In this document: piece by piece, positions 6,100 through 48,036 of the stretch
How the letters are laid out: each line of letters begins with the position of its first letter
Numbering within the stretch: position 1 is the first letter of the stretch
IMG/VR virus record: IMGVR_UViG_3300025011_000068
Coordinates: 1 to 49,517 of that record
Strand: one strand, 5' to 3'
DNA length: 49,517 bases
DNA from: a virus
Notes under the pieces: generated by a model
Seen by the model: only the letters and a program-made list of their open reading frames with translations
Told to the model about the DNA's origin: nothing
Databases searched by the model: none
Program-made: the position numbers and the translations under genes

Positions 6100-6276
6100 A
6101 TGAAGAAGATAAATTCGTACTTTACAGAAAAACAGATAGAAGCTCTTCGAAAGCTATCTGCGGATACTGGCCTGACCGTAGCTGAGCTACTGAGAAGGGC
6201 CATAGACCATTATTTGGGGAAGGACAGTGGGATACAAAAAACCAATACACGGGATGTACTACCACCACCTATATAA
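6100..6276 (+). CDS. Ribbon-helix-helix (CopG/Arc-like) small protein
   Basis: 58 residues. The sequence SYFTEKQIEALRKL, then TGLTVAELLRRAIDHYL, is a typical RHH pattern: one strand and two helices, with G-L-T-V-A-E-L at the turn. It is probably a DNA-binding regulator. AAGGAG lies at 6082-6087, an unusually long 12 bases before ATG 6100. The last 50 bases overlap the homing-type gene at 6227 in another frame, and the tail after the RHH fold (about residue 41) looks unstructured, so the insertion may have replaced the original C-terminus. Confidence 0.6.
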   Translation: MKKINSYFTEKQIEALRKLSADTGLTVAELLRRAIDHYLGKDSGIQKTNTRDVLPPPI

Positions 6277-6721
6277 GACTTGGTGGTGTATGGTTAACAG
6301 GTGCAGAAACCCTAAATATAAGGAATATCACTTATACGGTGGTAGAGGTATAAAGGTTTGTGATGATTGGGTGAACTCGCCTTTACTTTTTATAAAATGG
6401 GCTGAGCTAAATGGAGCTGAGCCTGGGTTGCAGTTAGATAGGAAAGAGAACAACGGGGACTACGAGCCAGGTAACTGCCACTTCACCACCCCGTCTCAGA
6501 ACGCTATAAATAGAAGGAAGAAATCAAATAACAGTTCGGGCTACACTGGTGTCCATTATATGATGAGTGCTAGTTTATACATAGCGAGAATAAGTGATAA
6601 AAGTATATCTAATAAGCGGATTCTAATAGCCTGCTGCACGACATTACATGAAGCGGTTGCTGCTAGGAATAAATTCATAATTGATAATAAACTAAAACAC
6701 CCAATACAGGAGATTAAATGA
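6227..6721 (+). CDS. Putative homing endonuclease, YGGRGI domain + AP2-like domain
   Basis: 164 residues, related to the protein at 1840-2550 but lacking its N-terminal zinc motif. Readable signatures: HLYKTWWCMVNRC, YGGRGIKVCDDW, LDRKENNGDYEPGNC and a C-terminal AP2-like segment. GTG 6227 is favoured by GGGGAAGGA upstream; ATG 6254 is a weaker alternative. The DNA is clearly A+T-richer than the ligase gene after it. The stop overlaps the ligase start as ATGA, and the final codons encode IQEIK through CAGGAGATTAAA, providing the ligase ribosome-binding site. Confidence 0.6.
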   Translation: MGYKKPIHGMYYHHLYKTWWCMVNRCRNPKYKEYHLYGGRGIKVCDDWVNSPLLFIKWAELNGAEPGLQLDRKENNGDYEPGNCHFTTPSQNAINRRKKSNNSSGYTGVHYMMSASLYIARISDKSISNKRILIACCTTLHEAVAARNKFIIDNKLKHPIQEIK

Positions 6722-12140: not shown

Positions 12141-12953
12141 TTATATCGCTGAAGCAAATGCTTCAGATCCCCAGAAGAGCATTTTTGATAGCGGCTTAAT
12201 ATTTTTGTGCCAATGGGTACTTGACAATTTATCTTTTCTCCCAAACTTATCAGCCAAGAAGCCTTCTAACGCCACTCGGTTAGCCTCACTCAATGTGGTG
12301 TTAAATACCATCATCTCATATATAGTTAGGTTGCCATAATATGTTGCCGCACTTTCCTTGCACATCTGCATGAGTGCAGTATTTGTTGCTGTCGGCGCTG
12401 TGGTATATGTTGCAGTACCTTGTGCATTACCATCTTGATGATATGTCATGGTATTTGCGGCATCATTCCATACATACTCAAGCATAAAAGCAGTATCAAC
12501 TCCAAGAGCACTGCTACTAGGGTCCATCCAAGCGACGCTAGCGTTAAGACCTCTCATTTTACCATCTGCCAGAGGGCCATTTATAGCATATGAAACACCA
12601 GAACCACTAGCTACACATAACATCCTCCCGTTGTTACCTGTGTGTACTGATGGAGTCCTAACAACGGCTATAACCGACGATGTGCTGTATATAGCACTGT
12701 TCTGTATTCCTGTTGTGAGCCAGTCATTACTGCCGTCAAAGTACGCCCCCTTATAGCCATTCAAAAGATTCGCACTAATGACCGGCTGGGAGGCCCCTGT
12801 TGCCTGAGTTGCATTAGTCCCCACGTTTGCTGTCCATGTAGCTACTGCACCGCTTGCCGGGAGTTCCTCCGGCCTGAAACGGGCTACTAACCCAGGAACA
12901 GTATTAGGGTTATAATCATAAAATCCTGCCGCCTTACTTACATTAGTAGCCAT
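12141..12953 (-). CDS. LamG/concanavalin-like tail-tip or receptor-binding protein (paralogue)
   Basis: 270 residues. It opens MATNVSK, then PGLVARFRPEELP and GAYFDGSNDWL, the usual start of a LamG-3 type concanavalin fold; then LTIYEMMVFNTTLSE and LEGFLADKFGRK, which matches the ends of many LamG fiber proteins. The C-terminus IKPLSKMLFWGSEAF mirrors the downstream paralogue. The start overlaps the preceding stop by one base (TAATG). DNA here is more A+T-rich than in the hub genes, consistent with exchangeable host-range genes. Confidence 0.65.
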   Translation of the reverse strand: MATNVSKAAGFYDYNPNTVPGLVARFRPEELPASGAVATWTANVGTNATQATGASQPVISANLLNGYKGAYFDGSNDWLTTGIQNSAIYSTSSVIAVVRTPSVHTGNNGRMLCVASGSGVSYAINGPLADGKMRGLNASVAWMDPSSSALGVDTAFMLEYVWNDAANTMTYHQDGNAQGTATYTTAPTATNTALMQMCKESAATYYGNLTIYEMMVFNTTLSEANRVALEGFLADKFGRKDKLSSTHWHKNIKPLSKMLFWGSEAFASAI

Positions 12954-14863
12954 TATGCCACCTCCGCTAATACAAGTTTTGCGTCAGAAATCACCTTGGC
13001 GTTCACTTCGATGAAGCATTGGGCGGTTCTATTTGGCGCTGTCCCTGTCACCGAGTAAACCATGAAGTTCAGTTCGGTACCTATCGTATCCCTAAACCTG
13101 AACCCTTCAGACTGGTAGGCTGCTGCGGGGAATACCAGTGATTGCCCCGAAACATGGAATTGATAGCCTACGGAGTTCAGGGACTCACCTACGTTCAGTT
13201 CGATCAAATCACCTGCAGCCAGGTTCAGAGTCACGCCGTTTCTAACAACGCTGGTATTGATGGCTACTTCGATATTAAAAGCGGTCTTGAAATGCACAAC
13301 AGCGCTTCTTTGCACCGGGATATGATCCGCGTTGAGATGATCCACGGTCAATAGGTAATCCGTAGCCCCTGAGAGTTTTTTCTCTGCGGGCACGGTATAG
13401 GACAGGCCAGCAACCGTTTCATCTATAACTGCCATATGGGTTTCAGCCCGGATAAGTCGAACCCTAGATTTTGCTACGTCGTAGTCCAGCTTCTGTGGAT
13501 TTGATTGATCAATCTCGATGAAGAATGAAGCTGCGGGCATATTCACATTGCCACTCACGGAAACACAACGCAGTTTAACTACAGTGTCAACTGCAGTAGT
13601 TATTCGTGCAACAGATACCGGTTGAGATGAATTATGTCCTGCTGTAGTGACCTCGTAGCAAATAGCGTCTACGCCATCAGGCAGTTTAACATTTGCATTA
13701 TCAACCCAAGAGAACCTGGCACTTTCTGCTGCAGACACATTGGCTATTTGACAGTACGCACTTAGCTTGTAGCTTTTACCAGCCTTTAACGTGATAGAGG
13801 AACCAGTGTTTGCCAAGGTACCCGAAACCAGGTCAAAGGTTATATCTGTATTGGCACCAAAATTGGTCTGGTCAGCAGATTTCCTACAGAACAAGAACTC
13901 CTTTGTAGCGCCTTTAGTGCTCGTAATCGTCGGTGTCAACGACTGCCCAACCGAGTTATCTGCCGGAGCCGTCACGTTGATCGCCGGGAAGATCAACTGG
14001 GTAGGAGTCAGGGCGATATGTTCCTCGGTAATCATATCAACCGCCCGCCATGGTAAAGTCTCGTCCTGGTTGGTATAAATTTTGAAGGTCTCAGCTGGAT
14101 CAATCGTCTTAATCCACCAGGTCATTGCCTCGCCTTCAGGGTAATCGGCCTCATCTACATTGATGAAAAGTTCCTGCCGTTGGGTATATATAGACAAGTC
14201 TTCTGCATCCATATCAGCGGGAGTTTTCAATTTATCGTAGAATTTAATATCATCATAGAGTCCAGTTCCAGCAGTCTCGTCAGCCTCCAGAGCGGTAAGC
14301 TGGATGTTGCCATAGTATGCCCTGACTCTGACACCGGCGTGGGCCTGCACTTCCGCAAGAGTCATCCCGAGGTGATAATAAATCCTTTGCAGTATGTACG
14401 TTACGGCAGGCACTGCCAGATATCGGTATGAACTGGTTTCAAGAAGGTGCGTGAAATCTTGCACCACCAACGGAGCAGCACCATCGGCGGGAACCCCCCA
14501 CGTACCATCGACCAAGCCGCTCTTGTCTCCAGCGTTGCCGTGGGTAACAACCCGCTTTTCGAGAGGCCCCATTTTTGGCATGTAGACCGTGCCGTTGCTC
14601 CCCGCAGTGGTCCATGGGGTTCCAGGAAGGATAGACTCGTATTCGTGGCCTGCAACTTGCACTGCAAGGTGATGACCTTTGAGCCTAATTTTGCCCACGC
14701 CGTGAAGGTCGAGGCCAGCAGATGGCAATAACGAACTCACAGCAACGCTTTTACTCGACCCCTCAGGCCCCATTGTGGTATCTGAAGGATCGATTACGTG
14801 CATTCGAGCGTTGGCTATTTTCGTCGCATCAGTTAATTCGGTATATTCTGATAATTTTGACAT
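12953..14863 (-). CDS. Large tail fiber protein
   Basis: 636 residues. The N-terminus (SKLSEYTELTDATKIANARMHVIDPSD, then SKSVAVSSLL) is the phage-fiber attachment segment in which a list of parameters leads to a trimer start. The remainder is beta-rich; residues about 290-480 contain an Ig/fibronectin-like stretch (NVTAPADNSVGQSLTPTITS) and a carbohydrate-module-like segment. Probably the main side or tip fiber with the two LamG proteins. AAAGGA precedes ATG 14863. Confidence 0.65.
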   Translation of the reverse strand: MSKLSEYTELTDATKIANARMHVIDPSDTTMGPEGSSKSVAVSSLLPSAGLDLHGVGKIRLKGHHLAVQVAGHEYESILPGTPWTTAGSNGTVYMPKMGPLEKRVVTHGNAGDKSGLVDGTWGVPADGAAPLVVQDFTHLLETSSYRYLAVPAVTYILQRIYYHLGMTLAEVQAHAGVRVRAYYGNIQLTALEADETAGTGLYDDIKFYDKLKTPADMDAEDLSIYTQRQELFINVDEADYPEGEAMTWWIKTIDPAETFKIYTNQDETLPWRAVDMITEEHIALTPTQLIFPAINVTAPADNSVGQSLTPTITSTKGATKEFLFCRKSADQTNFGANTDITFDLVSGTLANTGSSITLKAGKSYKLSAYCQIANVSAAESARFSWVDNANVKLPDGVDAICYEVTTAGHNSSQPVSVARITTAVDTVVKLRCVSVSGNVNMPAASFFIEIDQSNPQKLDYDVAKSRVRLIRAETHMAVIDETVAGLSYTVPAEKKLSGATDYLLTVDHLNADHIPVQRSAVVHFKTAFNIEVAINTSVVRNGVTLNLAAGDLIELNVGESLNSVGYQFHVSGQSLVFPAAAYQSEGFRFRDTIGTELNFMVYSVTGTAPNRTAQCFIEVNAKVISDAKLVLAEVA

Positions 14864-39662: not shown

Positions 39663-41327
39663 TCAAGAATTATCCATATCTTCTTGTTCTTCAGGAACTT
39701 TCTTTTGTCGTGGTGCTGCCCCTGGCTCGGCCACCTTTTCCGCCAACTGCTCGGCCTCAAGCTCGGTTATCAATTTGGGGTACAGTTTCTCTTCCGTCGC
39801 CAGTTTCAGCCTGCTCTTGTGGAGATTTTGGAAGCCGATCCGCCGGGCTATATCCTCGCTGGCGATCCCCAAGGTCTGGTTCACCGCCCCGTGCTTGACC
39901 CCGAGCAATGCCTTGACCTTGGACTCAAGGTCGCCTATTTCAGACAGCGGCCAGTTAATCGCTATCGTCTCATGAGCCTCGACCGGTACCTTCTTAAACT
40001 TGGCCACCCCGTTTTCAAATTTGTAGGCCTTATTTTCCGATACGGTCCAGGGCATATGTCCTGTTTTTGAGTGCAGGAACAAAGCTCCACGCCAAAAGGT
40101 GTAGGTCATAAACCGCTCCAGGTCCGCGACCTGGTCCGCGACCCTGTCCGCGATCGGGCCCCGGCTCATCTTTACCCCGCCGTAGGTCTGACCGGAGCTG
40201 CTGCCGGTCATCATATCCTCGGAGGTGTTGAGGCCGGCCGAGACCATGCGCAGGATGTCGTCGTCCTGGTTGGTAATCGAGGACAACTTCGGGTTATTGC
40301 AGGTCAGCTTAAACCCGGGGGGTAAAAACACCGTCATCCCCGGGGTCTTAGGCTGCATAAGCCCTGTCTTCTTTCGCTCTTCATCAGACATCCCCAGCCA
40401 CAGCCGGAAGGCCGCCCGGTCCACAACCTCGATCGACCACAGATAAGCGCCGGAGGATTTCTTATGATCCAGCTCCCACTTCTTGATGTTGTCGTAGTGC
40501 TCGAGCCACTCCAGGGTTACCTTTAACCTGCCGACGTTTCGCGAGGTCACCAAGCCCTGGTCAAACTGGACCATGAACTGGGTGTAGCCGCCTAACGGTT
40601 TAAATTTTGGGGAAGAATCCTTGCCCGCAATGTCACTCTCAACCACGGAGGGCCACTCCGGATGCGCCCGCAGAGTCTTCCACAATTCCGGATAATAGGC
40701 CAGGTTGATCGAAGGGATAAACCGGGCTCGGGTTATGCTGTTGGTCGTGGTTTCTACCCTATAAAGGAGCGGAAACATTGGTTTATTCTCCGGTGTGAGA
40801 ATGCCTGAGCCGTTTTGAAAGCCGCTGATAGCTGTAGGGCTGATGAAGTCAACCTCGACAAAGCCGTCTTTGTGAATGGTAAACACCAGAAAAAGCTCCC
40901 CCTGGATCACCGCCCGGGCGACGTATTTGGAGAAGTGCTGGACCAGGAGGTTACGTGGATCCGTCCAGACTTTTCTCATAAACTCATCAGCCTTTGTGTA
41001 GGTACTGCCCTGGTCAAAACCGAGCCCGGTCAACCTCCCGGTCGTATCCATCACCGTGGTGAACACGAACGGGTTTCGGTTGAACTTTTCCCAGCAGGCC
41101 CGCTGCAGCTGCTGGAAGCCGGCGTAGGCAAAGTCATCCCCCACCATCTTCAGCTTGAAGCCGTCCACGTCCACGCCGTTGTTGTAGCCCGCGGCGCTGC
41201 CGGCAGGGTTGCCTTGCCAGGGGGCCATAGCCCCGACCTTGCCGATCAGCACGTCCAGGTTGGCGTCACTTAAACCATCCAGGCTGGCTACCAATTCATC
41301 AAAGTGCTGCAAAGAGTCTTCACTCAT
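39663..41327 (-). CDS. Portal protein
   Basis: 554 residues. An N-terminal segment with NPAGSAAGYNNGVDVDG, then a large portal core, QGELFLVFTIHKDGFVEVDFISPTAISGFQNG, and KKTGLMQPKTPGMTVFLPPGFKL followed by DDDILRMVSAGLNTSEDMMTGSSSGQTYGGVKMSRGPI (helix alpha-10 and tunnel loop region). Placed between TerL and the protease, and it overlaps the TerL stop as ATGA. It should form the dodecameric portal. Confidence 0.82.
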   Translation of the reverse strand: MSEDSLQHFDELVASLDGLSDANLDVLIGKVGAMAPWQGNPAGSAAGYNNGVDVDGFKLKMVGDDFAYAGFQQLQRACWEKFNRNPFVFTTVMDTTGRLTGLGFDQGSTYTKADEFMRKVWTDPRNLLVQHFSKYVARAVIQGELFLVFTIHKDGFVEVDFISPTAISGFQNGSGILTPENKPMFPLLYRVETTTNSITRARFIPSINLAYYPELWKTLRAHPEWPSVVESDIAGKDSSPKFKPLGGYTQFMVQFDQGLVTSRNVGRLKVTLEWLEHYDNIKKWELDHKKSSGAYLWSIEVVDRAAFRLWLGMSDEERKKTGLMQPKTPGMTVFLPPGFKLTCNNPKLSSITNQDDDILRMVSAGLNTSEDMMTGSSSGQTYGGVKMSRGPIADRVADQVADLERFMTYTFWRGALFLHSKTGHMPWTVSENKAYKFENGVAKFKKVPVEAHETIAINWPLSEIGDLESKVKALLGVKHGAVNQTLGIASEDIARRIGFQNLHKSRLKLATEEKLYPKLITELEAEQLAEKVAEPGAAPRQKKVPEEQEDMDNS

Positions 41328-43204
41328 TTATATCTCCCTACTAAGTCATGGTTGTGGACGGAAGCGCCCATGAAGATGTTGCCGTTATGCGCGCCAAAGT
41401 CGTCTGGTGTGATTTCCCTAAGGCCGTAGATCCCCCAGCAGATGGCGAACATCACATCGTCCTGCACCCCTTTGGCGTTACTTTTGGTCAGGCTGCCGTA
41501 CCATTTTTTATGTACGTCGTGCCTAAACGCCTGCATCTCCTCTTTGAGCACGTCGTCGGTCTCCTTGCCGCGAATGACTGTGTCGGGGATCTTGAACAAC
41601 CCGGACTGCACCAACCGATAAAACTCATTAAAACCGGAACGCTGTTTGTCGTAGGTCGGAGAGATAAGCTCGATCTTGATGTCATTTTCCTCACAGTACT
41701 TCCGCAGCGCCCCCGCCCCCCAACGCTCAGAGCAGAACGTCTGTACTATCCCGAATTCATAGGCAAAATCCTCCAACTTCTCCTGGATTTCTCCTGCCTC
41801 GTTGCTCTGGATATGGACCAGGTGGATGAGAAAATAAATGTATCTGGCGTTATCTTTTAGTGTGAGGTGAAGGTCCGGCTGGGACCGCGACCCCGGCAGC
41901 CCCTTGGCAATAAAGGTGAGAAAGGATTGGGCGCCTTTGTTGATTTCATCCTTTAACGGGTCCGCGATATCGGCGCCGGTGCCGATCGCCCAGTTGGTGT
42001 CGTAGAGATCACCAAGGTATTGCAAATCATGCATCGATATACAGACAGGGTGAAAGTCTTCTTCCAGAGAGTAAGGCAGCGGTATCATTTCCGCCTTCAG
42101 CTCCTCAATCCTCGAGCGGTTATCCCTGAGGTCGTCCGATTCCTGCTCCTCTTCCAGCTTAGCAATCATCTGGCAATTCTTCAGCACGTTCGACTGCATA
42201 CCCAAGGTGCCGTTATACCCGATATACTTGGCAGAGAGGATCAGAGCCGGGCGGAATACCGAGGTGTCCACCAGCGTCCAGGTATTCTTGAAGTAACGGG
42301 CGAATTCCGGCGGGGTGAACTTGGTACGAAAGGAATCCAACTGAGCCTGGGTGTTGCAGGGGTGGAGGTAGTCTTTTTCCAGGGCCTGATTAGAGAAACG
42401 GTAACAGAACAGGATTCCCGGATCGGTGTTCTTTACCAGCGGCGAGGCCTCATAGAGATTATGTAGGACGTGGCCTTTCTCCGAGACCGTACTGTCGATG
42501 TAGCCCTGGCTGTTGGGGATATTCCGGCGCGAGGAATCCAACTGGTAAAAGAACTTTGGATTCGTTAGGTCAAAAAGCTCTGAAAAGGCATAACTAGTTA
42601 TATTACTATATATTCCTGTGAACGCGGACACTGCTATAATCTTTGAAACAGCTTCACCCTTAGAATTTTTTAATCTTATTTCTTTTTCTAAAATATTTTC
42701 AGCACCAAGAATAGCAATGAGTTTTGGAGAATTTCTAATTAGTTTAACAAGAATATCATATAGTGCAAACTTGGATTGGTCTTTGCTGTTGGCGCCAAGA
42801 ATGATGGTTTGGGCGGGGAGACAGAAAAATCGCCAAAGTATTAATAGACATGTTTGATATGATTTACCTTCACCCCGCGGTTGAACGTTGCACACCGTGT
42901 GATATTTGAGCAGCCCGTACTCGTCCCGAGAGGTTGCCGGACGAATAAAGTTTTCTTTTTGCCACTTCCACATTCCGTGGTACGTCCGTCCGGTAATTGG
43001 GTGGGGGGTAATCATGTTAGCTAAATCCCCTATCGGGACCCAGCGTTCAATGTTTAAGGCAAAATCCAATATATTAGTGTGAACATGCTCTTCGATCCAA
43101 GTCTCGGCCCCAAGTGGGTCTGTTTGGTAGAAACGCATTCTGGCGCGAATATGGTATAGTTTTTCAGCATCCGTCATTTCCTGAAAACTTGTTTTTTCTA
43201 CCAT
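41324..43204 (-). CDS. Terminase large subunit
   Basis: 626 residues from ATG 43204, where GGAG lies five bases upstream; GTG 43210 would overlap that site. ATPase Walker A variant QPRGEGKS near residue 110-117, Walker B-like AFSELFD near 210, and a nuclease domain starting GTGADIADP with acidic residues further on. It packages DNA into the prohead. No confident small terminase is adjacent; the 158-residue gene at 47560 is the nearest candidate. An A+T-rich insert of about 170 bases (42590-42760) interrupts otherwise balanced codon use. A TATAAG at 43238-43243 may be a -10 for this unit. Confidence 0.85.
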   Translation of the reverse strand: MVEKTSFQEMTDAEKLYHIRARMRFYQTDPLGAETWIEEHVHTNILDFALNIERWVPIGDLANMITPHPITGRTYHGMWKWQKENFIRPATSRDEYGLLKYHTVCNVQPRGEGKSYQTCLLILWRFFCLPAQTIILGANSKDQSKFALYDILVKLIRNSPKLIAILGAENILEKEIRLKNSKGEAVSKIIAVSAFTGIYSNITSYAFSELFDLTNPKFFYQLDSSRRNIPNSQGYIDSTVSEKGHVLHNLYEASPLVKNTDPGILFCYRFSNQALEKDYLHPCNTQAQLDSFRTKFTPPEFARYFKNTWTLVDTSVFRPALILSAKYIGYNGTLGMQSNVLKNCQMIAKLEEEQESDDLRDNRSRIEELKAEMIPLPYSLEEDFHPVCISMHDLQYLGDLYDTNWAIGTGADIADPLKDEINKGAQSFLTFIAKGLPGSRSQPDLHLTLKDNARYIYFLIHLVHIQSNEAGEIQEKLEDFAYEFGIVQTFCSERWGAGALRKYCEENDIKIELISPTYDKQRSGFNEFYRLVQSGLFKIPDTVIRGKETDDVLKEEMQAFRHDVHKKWYGSLTKSNAKGVQDDVMFAICWGIYGLREITPDDFGAHNGNIFMGASVHNHDLVGRYK

Positions 43205-43264
43205 ATCCACTCCAATTTTGGTGAGATTGTTTCAATTCTTATAAACTTTTTGTTTTAAAAAGAA

Positions 43265-43301
43265 AAGCCCTAGTATTCCAGTGTCAGGAATACTAGGGCT
43301 T
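43265..43301 (-). terminator. Strong intrinsic terminator after the secreted cassette
   Basis: Perfect 15-bp arms AAGCCCTAGTATTCC / GGAATACTAGGGCTT with a 7-base loop, followed on the minus strand by TTTCTTTTTAAAAC. Separates the beta-helix gene from terminase, so terminase probably needs its own promoter in the 43211-43264 gap. Confidence 0.88.
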
Positions 43302-43348
43302 AAGGATACCTCAGAAGGAAGAGTGTAGTTTCATATCGTGCAAGCCCA

Positions 43349-45361
43349 CTACTCCTCAATGAAAGCCATCGGCTCTGTGCCGAAGGTGAATGCTGCTTGT
43401 TGCCAAGTTCTTGGAGTGCTACAAGCCGGGCATGAGCCGCCGCAGTCTACGCCGGTTTCGTCGCCGTTTTGGGCCAGGTCTGAGCAGGTAGGATCTGGTG
43501 CAGGAAGGGCCGGATCGTACTCAAGCGCACCTACATCGAAAGCGTCAGCTCCCCTATACGCCCCATAAAAATCATACTCAGCAGCGGCCCAAACAACCCC
43601 GAAACCAATCGCGCCACTGCTAGATTGCAATGTAAAGTCTCCATTATCTGGGTCAGTGAGTAATGGATCGGCGGTCATATACCCAGAGTCCCATGCGGGC
43701 GGGGATGCAGGTGCGCCATTGCCTCCGTTATACCACACGTTGTTTGACGATGTGGGGTTTTTGTTGGTTATCACTGGCTCGTAACGAGCGTCTAATGTAT
43801 CAATAACAATATTATTCTCATAGTTCCAGGTTCCAGGATACCGCCACATCGTGGTATACCCTGAGCCATAAACGCCGACTGTTTCCATGTTATACGGAGT
43901 TGCGATAAATGTATTGTTGTACGCGTTTACATGGCCATCAAAACCAGCCCCATATATTTGCAGACCAGCAGTGGTGTATCCAGGCTGGGTGTGAGGAGGA
44001 CTGCCAGGGGCATGAACGATATTGTTGTAAACATTGACTGTTGTTGATAGACACGGGGACACCTGATATGTGAACAAACTGCCTATGGTTATCGCGCCGC
44101 CAGCCTGATTGCGGACAAGATTATTTGCGATATTTATATCAGTAACGATATCGCCGCACAATCCCTCATCATATATATGCAGTCCATTTCTCGCGTCATT
44201 GTCTTCAAGACGATTCCAGGATATATCAAAGCCTGGAATATTCCCGCTTTTGTAATTGGTGGAGTTAATCCAAGCAGACGGTGTTGTTGAGACGGTGGAT
44301 AGTTCCCAATATGTTTCCCACGATGCGCCGGTAACTGGTGTAGTTTCACTGCTAGAAACATGATCGACCTTGCAAGCATATTTCAAATCATCAGAACCTG
44401 TTATGACAGATTTTGACCTGTTTGAAATGTAAAAAACGTGGTGTTTTGTGGTTGTCGAAGGACAACCGAAGTCGTGAATATAGTTGCCATATGATTTAGT
44501 ATCCCCACCTTTGCCGAACGGGGCTGTAATAGCCCCCCCCTCGCCGTTGGCGCAGGTGGTGTCGGTGATCTCATTACCTATTACCCGCCAGCCGGTTCCG
44601 ACAGACACCCCGCTAACTTCCGTTATCACTCTCGCCTTTGATACTACCCAATATGATGAGTCATAGGGGTAGTAATTTACAATCCCGCTGGTAGTCGATA
44701 GGGTTGATGTAACCTCATACAGATAGCCAGGATAGGAGATAATTGCAAAATGGTTATCAGAGGTTCCAGCTTTCCCCCTGATTGCCTCCTGTGCAGCAAG
44801 ATCGCTCCCCAAGCTGTAGACAATATCCCCCGCAATTACCCCGGCTTTTGCTGATACACCAGGAGGGGAGCTGTAATATCCCATAGATTTCCATGGAGCC
44901 GCAAAACTACCATCTCCGGTGGTGTTGTCACCATCATCTGAGATATAGTAAATAGCTCCAGATCGCACAGTGAATGGGAGAGAATTTGACTCAACCGAAT
45001 CAACCTCAACCGTTATTGTCCCGGCCCCTATGGCGGAATCGGGAATTGAAAATGCTATTTCCTGCATTCTGTGGGAGCTGTAGAGGTTTGAAGGTCCACC
45101 GGGGATTAAACCATCAGCGTTTTTCCAATAATACACATGGGCAGCCTCTCGTTTTTGCGCCGCTGAATCAGTAAAATAAACCTTCGATGCGCCCTGAGCA
45201 CTCCCAAGCCTATTACCCCATAATGTAACTATTGCCCCGCTGCCTACCCCATCACCGACCCCAATATCTGGTCCAGATATCAGGTCAGAAAAATTCAGGT
45301 GTGGGGCGGCAATGGCGAGGCTCGACCATAACAAGACAGTTATAAATATTAAACTATTCAT
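43349..45361 (-). CDS. Exported right-handed beta-helix protein
   Basis: 670 residues. Starts with a Sec signal peptide (MNSLIFITVLLWSSLAIAAP). Residues about 25-135 form an IPT/TIG-like domain (GDGVGSGAIVTLWGNRLGSAQG...). A parallel beta-helix follows from about 140 to 590, with repeated N-x-I/V and GNYIHDF, IANNLVRNQAG, VYNNIVHAPG, AYNNTFIATP and ENNIVIDTL turns. The end has CSDLAQNGDETGVDCGGSCPAC, a Cys-rich segment known from bacterial surface proteins. A depolymerase or surface-modifying enzyme is possible; exported spikes are unusual for a virion. ATG 45361 overlaps the previous gene by eight bases. Confidence 0.7.
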   Translation of the reverse strand: MNSLIFITVLLWSSLAIAAPHLNFSDLISGPDIGVGDGVGSGAIVTLWGNRLGSAQGASKVYFTDSAAQKREAAHVYYWKNADGLIPGGPSNLYSSHRMQEIAFSIPDSAIGAGTITVEVDSVESNSLPFTVRSGAIYYISDDGDNTTGDGSFAAPWKSMGYYSSPPGVSAKAGVIAGDIVYSLGSDLAAQEAIRGKAGTSDNHFAIISYPGYLYEVTSTLSTTSGIVNYYPYDSSYWVVSKARVITEVSGVSVGTGWRVIGNEITDTTCANGEGGAITAPFGKGGDTKSYGNYIHDFGCPSTTTKHHVFYISNRSKSVITGSDDLKYACKVDHVSSSETTPVTGASWETYWELSTVSTTPSAWINSTNYKSGNIPGFDISWNRLEDNDARNGLHIYDEGLCGDIVTDINIANNLVRNQAGGAITIGSLFTYQVSPCLSTTVNVYNNIVHAPGSPPHTQPGYTTAGLQIYGAGFDGHVNAYNNTFIATPYNMETVGVYGSGYTTMWRYPGTWNYENNIVIDTLDARYEPVITNKNPTSSNNVWYNGGNGAPASPPAWDSGYMTADPLLTDPDNGDFTLQSSSGAIGFGVVWAAAEYDFYGAYRGADAFDVGALEYDPALPAPDPTCSDLAQNGDETGVDCGGSCPACSTPRTWQQAAFTFGTEPMAFIEE

Positions 45362-46367
45362 AGTTCACCTGTACCGATACTTCGGAAATTCGAGCGTCTT
45401 TCCCAACAACTGAGTACGACCGAGCGCCTGCCTCGAATGCGTCAATAATCGCGCATGTCCATGTCGTTGCCGGGTTATCGGTCCAGCCGCTCGGGGTGGT
45501 TGCCAACGTTACCGTGTAGTCTGTTGGAGTTGTATTGAGAGTGATATCCGCCGCAGCCCCAGCGGTATTGAGATAAGCACTTGTGCCACCTACAGCTTTC
45601 TCAAGCAAAGCAATTCTAACCGTTCCACCTGTAGTTGTTGACCATGCGCGGATAGTGGTTGCGACCGATGTAATGGCTTTCCCAGCACAATCGGCAGTAT
45701 TTGCCAGTGTTGGAGTATCAACCTCGAAGTTCGCGGAGGTGGAAATATACGTCGAATCACTAGTATCAACTAACTGTGACCATCCATTGGCCCCTGTGCT
45801 ATCCCATTGATGCACATGATCTGCCGTAGGAAATAGCGTCTCACTGGACGCCGATGGGGTGGGATTATTCCATCCAGTAAAAGTGACTGCGTAATAATCC
45901 CATTGATTGGTGGCCTCGCAAATGTAATGATTAGTGCCATTAAATGACCACTCCCCAACCGTGCAGGGATCATCGGAATAAGTTGGTGTCGCTACATAGC
46001 CGCCAACTCCGCCTGATCCATTCGCCGCCGCCGTAACCCGCCCCTGCTGATCAACCGTGATATTGGCATTGGTGTAGGCTGCCGGGGTTACTGCGGTGTC
46101 GTCAATGTTCAGCGTGCTGGTTCCACTGTCAAAGGTGAGGCCGGTCCCTGCGGTAATCTCTACTGTGTCAGCAAGAACATAGGATTTAATCCCGGTTAAC
46201 GGTATCCAGTGATCAGCAGTTGTTTCACCAGTGGTTTTCTGGATAGGCACAAATTCTGTACCGGCAGGTGTCGTTAGTTCGGTTATCCCACTCTTATTCT
46301 TCCAACTAGCTCCATAAGATGGCCCAGCCAGTATTAATAAAATAAAAATTACTGCTATCTTATTCAT
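45354..46367 (-). CDS. Exported fiber-like protein
   Basis: 337 residues from ATG 46367, coupled to the previous stop as ATGA. MNKIAVIFILLILAGPSYGASW is a clear Sec signal peptide. The mature part resembles phage tail fibers: ITELTTPAGTEFVPIQK, ITAGTGLTFDSGTSTLNIDDTAV and YTNANITVDQQGRVTAA, then two Cys-containing beta stretches. It is not a cytoplasmic virion protein by these signals. Overlaps the beta-helix gene downstream. Confidence 0.65.
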   Translation of the reverse strand: MNKIAVIFILLILAGPSYGASWKNKSGITELTTPAGTEFVPIQKTTGETTADHWIPLTGIKSYVLADTVEITAGTGLTFDSGTSTLNIDDTAVTPAAYTNANITVDQQGRVTAAANGSGGVGGYVATPTYSDDPCTVGEWSFNGTNHYICEATNQWDYYAVTFTGWNNPTPSASSETLFPTADHVHQWDSTGANGWSQLVDTSDSTYISTSANFEVDTPTLANTADCAGKAITSVATTIRAWSTTTGGTVRIALLEKAVGGTSAYLNTAGAAADITLNTTPTDYTVTLATTPSGWTDNPATTWTCAIIDAFEAGARSYSVVGKDARISEVSVQVNYE

Positions 46368-46783
46368 GATCCACTCTCCATATTTGATCCATCTGACCAT
46401 TGCATATTTGATCCATCTGACCATTGCCAACCCTCAATAAGAATCTCTCCAAAATACCGATACGGTCTCTGCATATCTGAGCCTTCTTCATAAACAGCGT
46501 AGCCTTTTGTCGAGTTTCCGACCAACTCCCAACCGTTATTCAGGATGGCGCTGGCTTCGATGTTGATGATCCGCTGCTCGTCACTGTACGGTTCGTCAAA
46601 CTCATCAAAGAGCAACGCCCATATTTCTGTCCTGACGTTTGGCTTATCGCTGATTGATAAGCCGATACTATCGGGCAAGAGCAACCCCGTCGCTGGGTCC
46701 TTCTTGATGAGCATCTGTAGTCCAGTCCTCGGGATTGACAATGCACCTGGTGATGGGCCGTTTACATATGGCCAACTGGTCAT
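46364..46783 (-). CDS. Hypothetical protein, 139 aa, with C-terminal duplicated octapeptide
   Basis: ATG 46783 overlaps the previous stop as ATGA; the longer frame from 46798 is rejected. MTSWPYVNGPSPGALSIPRTGLQMLIKKD, then a beta-rich domain (IGLSISDKPNVRTEIWALLFDEFD), ending with QWSDGSNM twice, encoded by a perfect 24-bp tandem duplication. Without a signal peptide, unlike the two following genes. Unknown function; second gene of the cassette. Confidence 0.5.
   Translation of the reverse strand: MTSWPYVNGPSPGALSIPRTGLQMLIKKDPATGLLLPDSIGLSISDKPNVRTEIWALLFDEFDEPYSDEQRIINIEASAILNNGWELVGNSTKGYAVYEEGSDMQRPYRYFGEILIEGWQWSDGSNMQWSDGSNMESGS
46379..46426. repeat. 24-bp perfect tandem duplication
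   Basis: Two copies of CATATTTGATCCATCTGACC plus ATTG, in frame with the gene above and encoding QWSDGSNM twice. The duplication also carries into the unused upstream part of the next frame. Likely recent slippage. Confidence 0.85.
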
Positions 46784-47280
46784 CTGAGTACCCTCCAATT
46801 TACTGTCATTGCTGCGGGGGTTACAGCTGCTCCGGTACGATTACAGACCAGGATGTTGATGTTGTCAGCAGTTGGGAAAGCTCTGATGGATAACTCGTCT
46901 GTGGTTGGGTCATAACCTGTCTTGCCGATCGGGGTTTCGTTGTAGCCAATATCCACAACGTCGGTTGTGAGGACTCCCGGGGCTTCGACCGTGATCAAGG
47001 CAGCGCAGGCGCTGTCTGCAATTTCTTCTGTAGTAAGGGCCTGAACTCCACTTGCTATTGTTTTGGCTCTTGCTTCCCATACCGGGGCGCCAGTACTTCC
47101 TTGGGAGATAAGGGCGAGGCCGGCAGCGCCTATTGGGAGTTCTTTTATGCCTTCTTCTGCGCCATCAGTATAAAAAAGTTTCCAGGTGCCGGGGACTGTT
47201 AATCCTTGGATACCAATGGAAGATTCCTCCATAAGGTAGACACCGGGAACACCAACAGTACGGGTTTTTTCCAAAGCCAT
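46780..47280 (-). CDS. Virion or fiber-like protein, 166 aa
   Basis: First gene after the sigma70-like promoter, with AAGGAGAT before ATG 47280. Beta-rich, GVPGVYLMEESSIGIQG, LPIGAAGLALISQGSTGAPVW, then a jelly-roll-like C-terminus with VVDIGYNETPIGKTGYDPTTDELSIRAFPTADNINILVCNRTG, which resembles the ends of phage fiber or appendage proteins. No signal peptide. Confidence 0.5.
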   Translation of the reverse strand: MALEKTRTVGVPGVYLMEESSIGIQGLTVPGTWKLFYTDGAEEGIKELPIGAAGLALISQGSTGAPVWEARAKTIASGVQALTTEEIADSACAALITVEAPGVLTTDVVDIGYNETPIGKTGYDPTTDELSIRAFPTADNINILVCNRTGAAVTPAAMTVNWRVLR

Positions 47281-47326
47281 AAGGGTATCTCCTTATTAAG
47301 GTGGGTCTTTTAAAATTTAGGCTTTT

Positions 47327-47355
47327 AGTATTGACATATTATTTTTAAAAGTCAA
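47327..47355 (-). promoter_or_regulatory. Sigma70-like promoter for the secreted cassette
   Basis: On the minus strand TTGACT (47355-47350) and AATACT (47332-47327) with a 17-base spacer, 5/6 and 4/6 to consensus, in an A+T-rich stretch upstream of the gene at 47280. Transcription would begin near 47320, giving a leader of about 40 bases. Confidence 0.6.
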
Positions 47356-47559: not shown

Positions 47560-47587
47560 TTAATTTGGCCCTACCCGGGCTTCTACA
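47523..47587. repeat. 28-29-bp tandem repeat, about 2.3 copies
   Basis: Unit CTTCTACAATTAATTNGGnC followed by TCTACCCGGG. Copies at 47523-47550 and 47551-47579 plus a partial one to 47587. The last copies reach into the 3' end of the minus-strand gene, so its final residues EARVGPN are encoded in the repeat. Confidence 0.8.
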
Positions 47588-48036
47588 CTGCCCTGGCCGT
47601 CGTAGCACAGCATCTCATAGTAGCCGTTGCCGTTGAGCAGTTCGCCCATTGCCGACTTCAACGGCTTGTCCGCGGTCTCTTCCTTATATGCCCTCATCGT
47701 CTCGGTCAATACGTTGTTGATGGCTGAGATGCATTGTCGCATTTCTCGAAAGATCGGGTTTATCCCTTTTCCGTGGAACAGCTTCCGATGCTGCGTCTCG
47801 CCCATCTTTAATAGCAGTAATTGTTCAAAAAGTGGTCGGAGCAGAAGGTCCAACCTGAGCCTAGTTTCCGGCGCGTCGTCGAGCTTTTTAAAGGTGTCGC
47901 TGACGGTACGATCGAGTTGGAATAAAAATTGTTCCTTGATGTGACAGGGCGCCCCAGGCATAGGCCCATTGGGGCACTCTTCTGCTATCGGACACTGTTC
48001 CGGATCACACTCAATGTGTTTTGTCAACATATTCAT
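47560..48036 (-). CDS. Cys-rich protein, 158 aa; small terminase candidate
   Basis: N-terminal Cys cluster (HIECDPEQCPIAEECPNGPMPGAPCHIKEQ; spacings C-x4-C-x5-C-x9-C) suggesting a metal site, then helical regions (LRLDLLLRPLFEQLLLLKMGETQHRKL and MRQCISAINNVLTETMRAYKEE). Starts at ATG 48036 or 48030. It is the only gene upstream of terminase on the same strand outside the cassette, which raises a small-terminase role, but no TerS motif is clear. There is no Shine-Dalgarno; see the promoter entry. Confidence 0.55.
   Translation of the reverse strand: MNMLTKHIECDPEQCPIAEECPNGPMPGAPCHIKEQFLFQLDRTVSDTFKKLDDAPETRLRLDLLLRPLFEQLLLLKMGETQHRKLFHGKGINPIFREMRQCISAINNVLTETMRAYKEETADKPLKSAMGELLNGNGYYEMLCYDGQGSVEARVGPN

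Follow-up and report, generated by a model that had tools for sequence, protein, structure and literature searches.

The usual assumption is that virion fibers fold and are attached within the cytoplasm, and, to our knowledge, known virion tailspikes carry a virion-binding N-terminal domain and lack a Sec signal peptide, unlike the 670-amino-acid (aa) protein described here. We analyzed an IMG/VR virus contig of 49,517 nucleotides (IMGVR_UViG_3300025011_000068; "the window" below means this whole stretch), in which four overlapping genes fill a slot between a TerS-like gene and the terminase gene TerL. The last two genes encode a fiber-like protein of 337 aa and a lyase-type beta-helix protein of 670 aa, each starting with a predicted Sec signal peptide. 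A first-pass annotation of this locus had taken the signal peptides as an argument against a place in the virion and proposed a moron that alters the host surface. We lean cautiously toward a different reading, in which the block is an exchangeable, exported adsorption/depolymerase cassette in a variable TerS-TerL slot, with products that dock on virions after lysis.

The closest described systems are those of isolated Cellulophaga phages, for which the virion evidence consists of GenBank record notes on tandem mass spectrometry (MS/MS). According to these records, phi10:1 gp091 to gp094, phi39:1 gp25, and phiSM gp08, all fiber-like with a signal peptide, are virion proteins, as is the signal-peptide pectate lyase phi39:1 gp26. 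The signal peptides that start these proteins are canonical (phiSM gp08 was checked via its phi3:1 copy). Over 590 aa, the lyase region of phi39:1 gp26 shares 66% identity with the C-terminal portion of phi13:1 gp024, an MS/MS virion protein with a conventional, nonexported N terminus; the same enzyme is therefore found on particles in both export-tagged and untagged forms. The argument that a signal peptide speaks against virion location is thus contradicted by the records for phi10:1, phi39:1, and phiSM. As in the window, one or more exported fiber-like genes are followed by an exported pectate lyase-like gene in phiSM/phi3:1 (gp8-gp9), phi39:1 (gp25-gp26), and phi10:1 (gp091-gp095). The phiSM/phi3:1 pair lies inside the head gene block (portal to Clp protease), similar to the window pair, which adjoins terminase. 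In contrast, the Cellulophaga phages have Bacteroidota hosts, and the proteins examined have no Cys-rich end; searches of the phage collection with the window proteins returned no Cellulophaga record and detected no sequence relation. Lyases with signal peptides were also remarked upon in passing in the flavobacterial phages Nekkels and Ingeline (Bartlau et al. 2021, PMC8776804), so this kind of protein is not wholly new; the passages of that paper concerned with these lyases do not discuss a cassette, a shared C-terminal end, or the export question. Apart from this passing remark, the literature searched contained no account of the cassette logic, the shared C-terminal end, the slot exchange, or the paradox of exported virion proteins.

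Signal peptides were called with a rule-based predictor (an uncharged hydrophobic stretch, then small residues at −3/−1). Such peptides begin gene 3 (337 aa; 45354 to 46367, minus strand) and gene 4 (670 aa; 43349 to 45361, minus strand), reading MNKIAVIFILLILAGPSYG/A (about residues 1 to 19; 46311 to 46367, minus strand; 11-residue mean hydropathy of 3.64) and MNSLIFITVLLWSSLAIA/A (residues 1 to 18, A-I-A/A; 45308 to 45361, minus strand; hydropathy of 2.21), respectively. Among the 48 open reading frames (ORFs) of the window, the 337-aa protein ranked first by far in N-terminal hydropathy and the 670-aa protein third. Outside such cassettes, the rule was positive for 5 of 317 phage ORFs of at least 200 aa, three of which probably reflect wrong start codons. 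A relative of gene 4 in contig L003 has a different, well-formed signal peptide in front of the same conserved mature start (P-x-L-x-F-[ST]-D-L), and cellular relatives with a readable N terminus carry a signal or lipoprotein peptide at the same place. Both genes therefore combine an n-h-c N terminus, small −3/−1 residues, and conservation across relatives, as expected of Sec type I signal peptides under this rule-based definition, which bears out the initial identification of these peptides. Given the Sec signal peptides on both proteins, both would be expected to move out of the cytoplasm.

We then considered what the exported enzyme might do. The structure of the 670-aa protein was modeled over residues 20 to 614 using 13 sequences (predicted local distance difference test [pLDDT] of 75.7; predicted template modeling score [pTM] of 0.82). 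As had been read from the sequence, the model comprises an N-terminal IPT/Ig-like domain (about residues 20 to 135; 44957 to 45304, minus strand; pLDDT mostly >90; Ig/filamin and CGTase matches) and a parallel, right-handed beta-helix (about residues 136 to 614; 43520 to 44956, minus strand) supported by both the model and structure matches. Foldseek matched the beta-helix model to 3vst (2.9e-5) and 1ru4 (6.9e-5). The best solved match was the PL9 pectate lyase Pel9A (VIA Z of 25.6 over 349 residues), and further VIA matches included an alginate lyase (25.4), a PL9 rhamnogalacturonan lyase, and Vibrio RbmB (21.9), placing the model by fold among the PL9/PL6/GH120-like beta-helix enzymes. Because the Streptococcus adhesin PfbA likewise matches (Z of 19.8), fold alone is no proof of activity. 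RbmB, a Vibrio cholerae biofilm-matrix polysaccharide lyase (PDB 9ozl/9ozd), shares the right-handed beta-helix over 291 residues but differs in being bacterial, in its identity of 11%, and in having no IPT domain aligned, and the match does not imply that the 670-aa protein has the same substrate. The glycan-active beta-helix fold is also shared with phage tailspike depolymerases such as Dettilon gp208 (6f7d), Fri1 gp49 (6c72), and the Klebsiella K1 lyase (7w1c), at VIA Z values of 17.8 to 21.5. At the sequence level, a PDB search with the 670-aa protein gave no match, an NCBIfam search gave nothing above the cut-off, and the Pfam family PF17161 (DUF5123) scored 29.4 bits, below its gathering cut-off of 35.1; the annotated phage collection contained no match to the 670-aa protein, to TerL, or to the C-terminal end.

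Cellular relatives of the 670-aa protein were found at ten loci (29 to 38% identity in the best segments), and nearly all are exported. Those with informative neighbors sit among polysaccharide-synthesis genes: by Pfam, the neighbors at L101, L104, L105, and L113 include glycosyltransferases, Wzx-type flippases, O-acyltransferases, and a UDP-sugar dehydrogenase. The proteins from the exopolysaccharide (EPS) loci of Desulfuromonadaceae (L101), Marinobacter (L104), and Colwellia (L105) are homologous to gene 4 over most of its length and share its export, its IPT plus beta-helix layout, and its conserved K/R/H/D residues; they differ in being chromosomal, among glycosyltransferases and flippases, and in having no phage C-terminal peptide. 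Across the 13 sequences, K242 and R259 are conserved in all, and H308, R315, H395, and D398 in 11; the phage protein keeps all six of these polar residues. Since the cellular relatives are exported and lie among polysaccharide-synthesis genes, the enzyme probably originated by capture from the exopolysaccharide machinery of a host, and both model and homology suggest that it would act on exopolysaccharide. Action on surface polysaccharide, one part of the earlier proposal, is thus supported by the fold, by the exported relatives in polysaccharide loci, and by the C-terminal end shared with lyase-like phage enzymes (see below). A Moranbacteria metagenome-assembled genome (MAG; L096:794-6693) also encodes the beta-helix protein as three exported paralogues in tandem, all with dockerin-like ends; the first of them has the Cys motif of gene 4. 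In an attempt at host assignment, the major capsid protein gave only 24 to 31% matches in the class of the Desulfuromonadaceae MAG.

The C terminus of gene 4 links it to other exported phage enzymes. It consists of a Cys-rich module, CSDLAQNGDETGVDCGGSCPAC (43421 to 43486, minus strand), common to exported phage enzymes and some cellular proteins, and a terminal peptide, WQQAAFTFGTEPMAFIEE (43352 to 43405, minus strand), common to the enzymes of L090 and L107. The module and the last ~18 residues are 87% identical in the L090 enzyme (843 aa; resemblance to heparinase limited to a weak Pfam match), and the region aligns to L090 over 142 bp at 85% DNA identity, which points to recent exchange. 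Related C-terminal ends occur in the L010 enzyme (978 aa; Pfam PcRGLX_2nd at 37.1 bits versus a cut-off of 23.5) and, without the Cys module, in the L107 enzyme. The Cys-rich end noted in the first pass is therefore present and common to unrelated exported phage enzymes. A survey of the Cys motif added L092, L093, L095, L125, L126/L132, L127, L129, and L131, and in each of these, as in L010, L090, and L107, an exported fiber-like gene lies directly upstream of the exported enzyme, overlapping or abutting it (spacing of −35 to +11 nt in the 13 pairs measured; the upstream gene of L095 appears frameshifted). Since enzymes of different kinds carry similar ends within a phage group, the end may have a common docking or handling role. 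We dropped the Cys-rich motif alone as a phage export or docking tag, since it is also found in cellular proteins, even in repeated form; so far, phage specificity is apparent only for the final ~18 residues of gene 4. The exported lyases of L129 and L131 end in a common N-x-T-[IL]-I-W-W-type peptide (L129:6090-6138 and L131:6090-6135) in place of the FIEE end, and other phage groups may have C-terminal tags of their own.

The fiber-like partner is less well defined by homology. The resemblance of the 337-aa protein to a tail fiber, noted earlier, is confined to one short module (residues 66 to 122; phrog_38058 tail fiber, E = 7e-7); a relative of gene 3 in L010 carries a signal peptide. Fiber-like proteins are not export tagged in general: among about 60 with a phrog_38058-type module, only those of L010, L067, and L082 carry a credible signal peptide. 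A second fiber-like gene (12953 to 14863; 636 aa; MSKLSEYTELTDATKI...) stands at the end of the tail module of the window and has no signal peptide; by our reading, its product starts similarly to the mature 337-aa protein.

The slot that holds the cassette is variable. In the sister phage L117 (TerL 94% identical), homology to the window sets in only at 43332, immediately past gene 4; the slot instead contains a beta-helix-repeat-like protein (332+ aa, truncated by the contig end) and genes of 358, 89, and 111 aa. In L118 (TerL 79% identical), only an HNH gene lies between a TerS homologue and TerL. In L003, four signal-peptide genes are flanked by a TerS-like gene and by a TerL from a different family, both names reflecting our reading of the sequences. 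The cassette is thus absent or replaced in close relatives. TerL itself is a mosaic relative to L117, mostly 57 to 87% identical (60-bp steps) over the 5′ third and 92 to 100% identical from about 42571. Within 42571 to 43332, a terminator patch of ~115 bp upstream of TerL is near-identical to that of L117, whereas the DNA flanking it on either side has diverged, a pattern resembling a recombination joint.

The transcription signals of the cassette are of unequal quality. The cassette terminator (43301 to 43265, minus strand) has a perfect 15-bp stem and a T-run (−25.8 kcal/mol; z = −7.3), as originally described. L117 has the identical terminator and L118 a largely conserved one; both phages carry other genes in the slot. 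A second terminator (47411 to 47377, minus strand; 14- to 15-bp stem; −22.9 kcal/mol; z = −5.2) sits between the cassette and the TerS-like gene; therefore, the cassette is bracketed by terminators. The differing slot contents of L117 and L118 support the description of the block as self-contained. The sigma70-like promoter is present as a sequence, TTGACT-N17-AATACT (47355 to 47327, minus strand; 9/12 match), but matches are no more frequent than chance (5 such sites in the 6-kb region versus 8.9 ± 3.0 in shuffles). Both terminators are significant, and the promoter match is not above chance level.

The remaining genes of the block and its flanks follow tailed-phage order. By profile searches, the minus strand carries the TerS-like gene, the cassette, TerL, portal, head-maturation protease, and major capsid genes, followed further along by tape measure, tail, fiber-like, and endolysin genes; DNA-metabolism genes are on the plus strand. 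The slot is bounded on the left by the TerS-like gene (47560 to 48036, minus strand; named from its position) and on the right by TerL (41324 to 43210, minus strand; phrog_2, E = 4.1e-7). As first described, the four genes upstream of terminase are coupled, all on the minus strand, with neighbors overlapping by 4 to 8 nt. Shine-Dalgarno-like sequences back the starts of gene 4 (AGGTGA) and gene 3 (GGAG). Gene 1 (46780 to 47280, minus strand; 166 aa) is an ORF without a signal peptide or Pfam match (weak phrog_33673, E = 0.03) and, by our reading, contains a fiber-like LPIGAAGLALISQGSTGAPVWE stretch. Gene 2 (46364 to 46783, minus strand; 139 aa from its ATG, the listed 144-aa version starting at an upstream TTG) also has no signal peptide and no family match, and a WSDGSNMQ unit is duplicated at its C-terminal end. 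The TerS-like protein is 48% identical to that of the gene preceding the slot in L118; its Cys-rich N terminus, CDPEQCPIAEECPNGPMPGAPC, also kept in L118, looks like a zinc-binding knuckle. Elsewhere in the window, an SbcD/SbcC-like pair is flanked by two HNH endonuclease genes (1819 to 2550 and 6227 to 6721), and a 12-bp tandem repeat, (CTGTCCCGGTCG)n, fills the contig end (49400 to 49517), where assembly probably broke off.

In the reading we prefer, the fiber-like protein and the beta-helix lyase-type enzyme would be made from overlapping genes with Sec signal peptides, leave the cytoplasm, and acquire their fold, including disulfides, in the periplasm. Taken from host exopolysaccharide machinery, the enzyme would act on the capsule or EPS of its own or neighboring cells. 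After lysis, the fiber-like partner would join virions, and the enzyme could do so via this partner or via its Cys-rich C-terminal end; part of the enzyme may act free. Tailspikes can join virions in vitro. We infer actual export, enzymatic activity and substrate, virion docking, and timing. By analogy with the Cellulophaga phages, docking after lysis is favored for the fiber-like protein and possibly for the enzyme, with a free-enzyme role as the main rival.

That rival, which we consider rather unlikely, is a secreted, nonvirion depolymerase moron: both proteins would remain at the surface of the infected cell or in the medium and remove EPS by the time of lysis, so that progeny are released and neighboring cells become accessible. 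Several observations favor it, weigh against docking, or do both. The enzyme has the architecture of exported cellular EPS-locus proteins and no recognized virion-binding N-terminal domain, the cassette is bracketed by terminators, and the exported lyases phi10:1 gp095 and phiSM gp09 are not among the MS/MS-supported proteins. The conventional fiber-like gene at 12953 to 14863 means that the cassette need not be the main fiber. The virion evidence comes from record notes on unrelated proteins of Bacteroidota phages and not from the window phage, and L091/L122 is an exception to the pairing, the L091 enzyme having a signal peptide and its preceding gene none. However, virion records exist for the fiber-like partners in this arrangement from three Cellulophaga phages and for the lyase of phi39:1. 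From the original proposal of a surface-modifying moron, the exchangeable exported block and the action on polysaccharide are therefore retained, whereas the use of the signal peptide as an argument against the virion is not. An improbable alternative is host-surface decoration or superinfection exclusion, with the exported fiber covering receptors or the enzyme editing a receptor against other phages; an exported fiber with a glycan-active enzyme would fit, but the arrangement recurs among the structural genes of many phages, the MS/MS precedent puts such fibers on particles, and no finding of the analysis favors superinfection blocking. Finally, it is very improbable that the hydrophobic stretches stay uncleaved and serve as anchors or assembly elements in tail proteins put together in the cytoplasm in the ordinary way: the calls come from a rule-based predictor only, the N-region of gene 4 has no Lys or Arg, and virion presence in Cellulophaga phages is compatible with this view, but the n-h-c layout with small −3/−1 residues falls just before a conserved mature start, a position where cellular relatives also bear a signal or lipoprotein peptide.

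More generally, and only tentatively, tailed phages of at least two host groups may build their adsorption apparatus partly from a Sec-exported fiber and depolymerase that would be matured outside the cytoplasm and added from outside at or after lysis, the enzyme being swapped in from host EPS loci and carrying a common C-terminal end. A signal peptide by itself cannot mark a phage gene as a nonvirion moron or metabolic gene, and the shared C-terminal end would aid in finding phage depolymerases in metagenomes. With exported fiber and lyase pairs and MS/MS records in three isolates, extracytoplasmic adhesin assembly in some tailed phages becomes a testable question.

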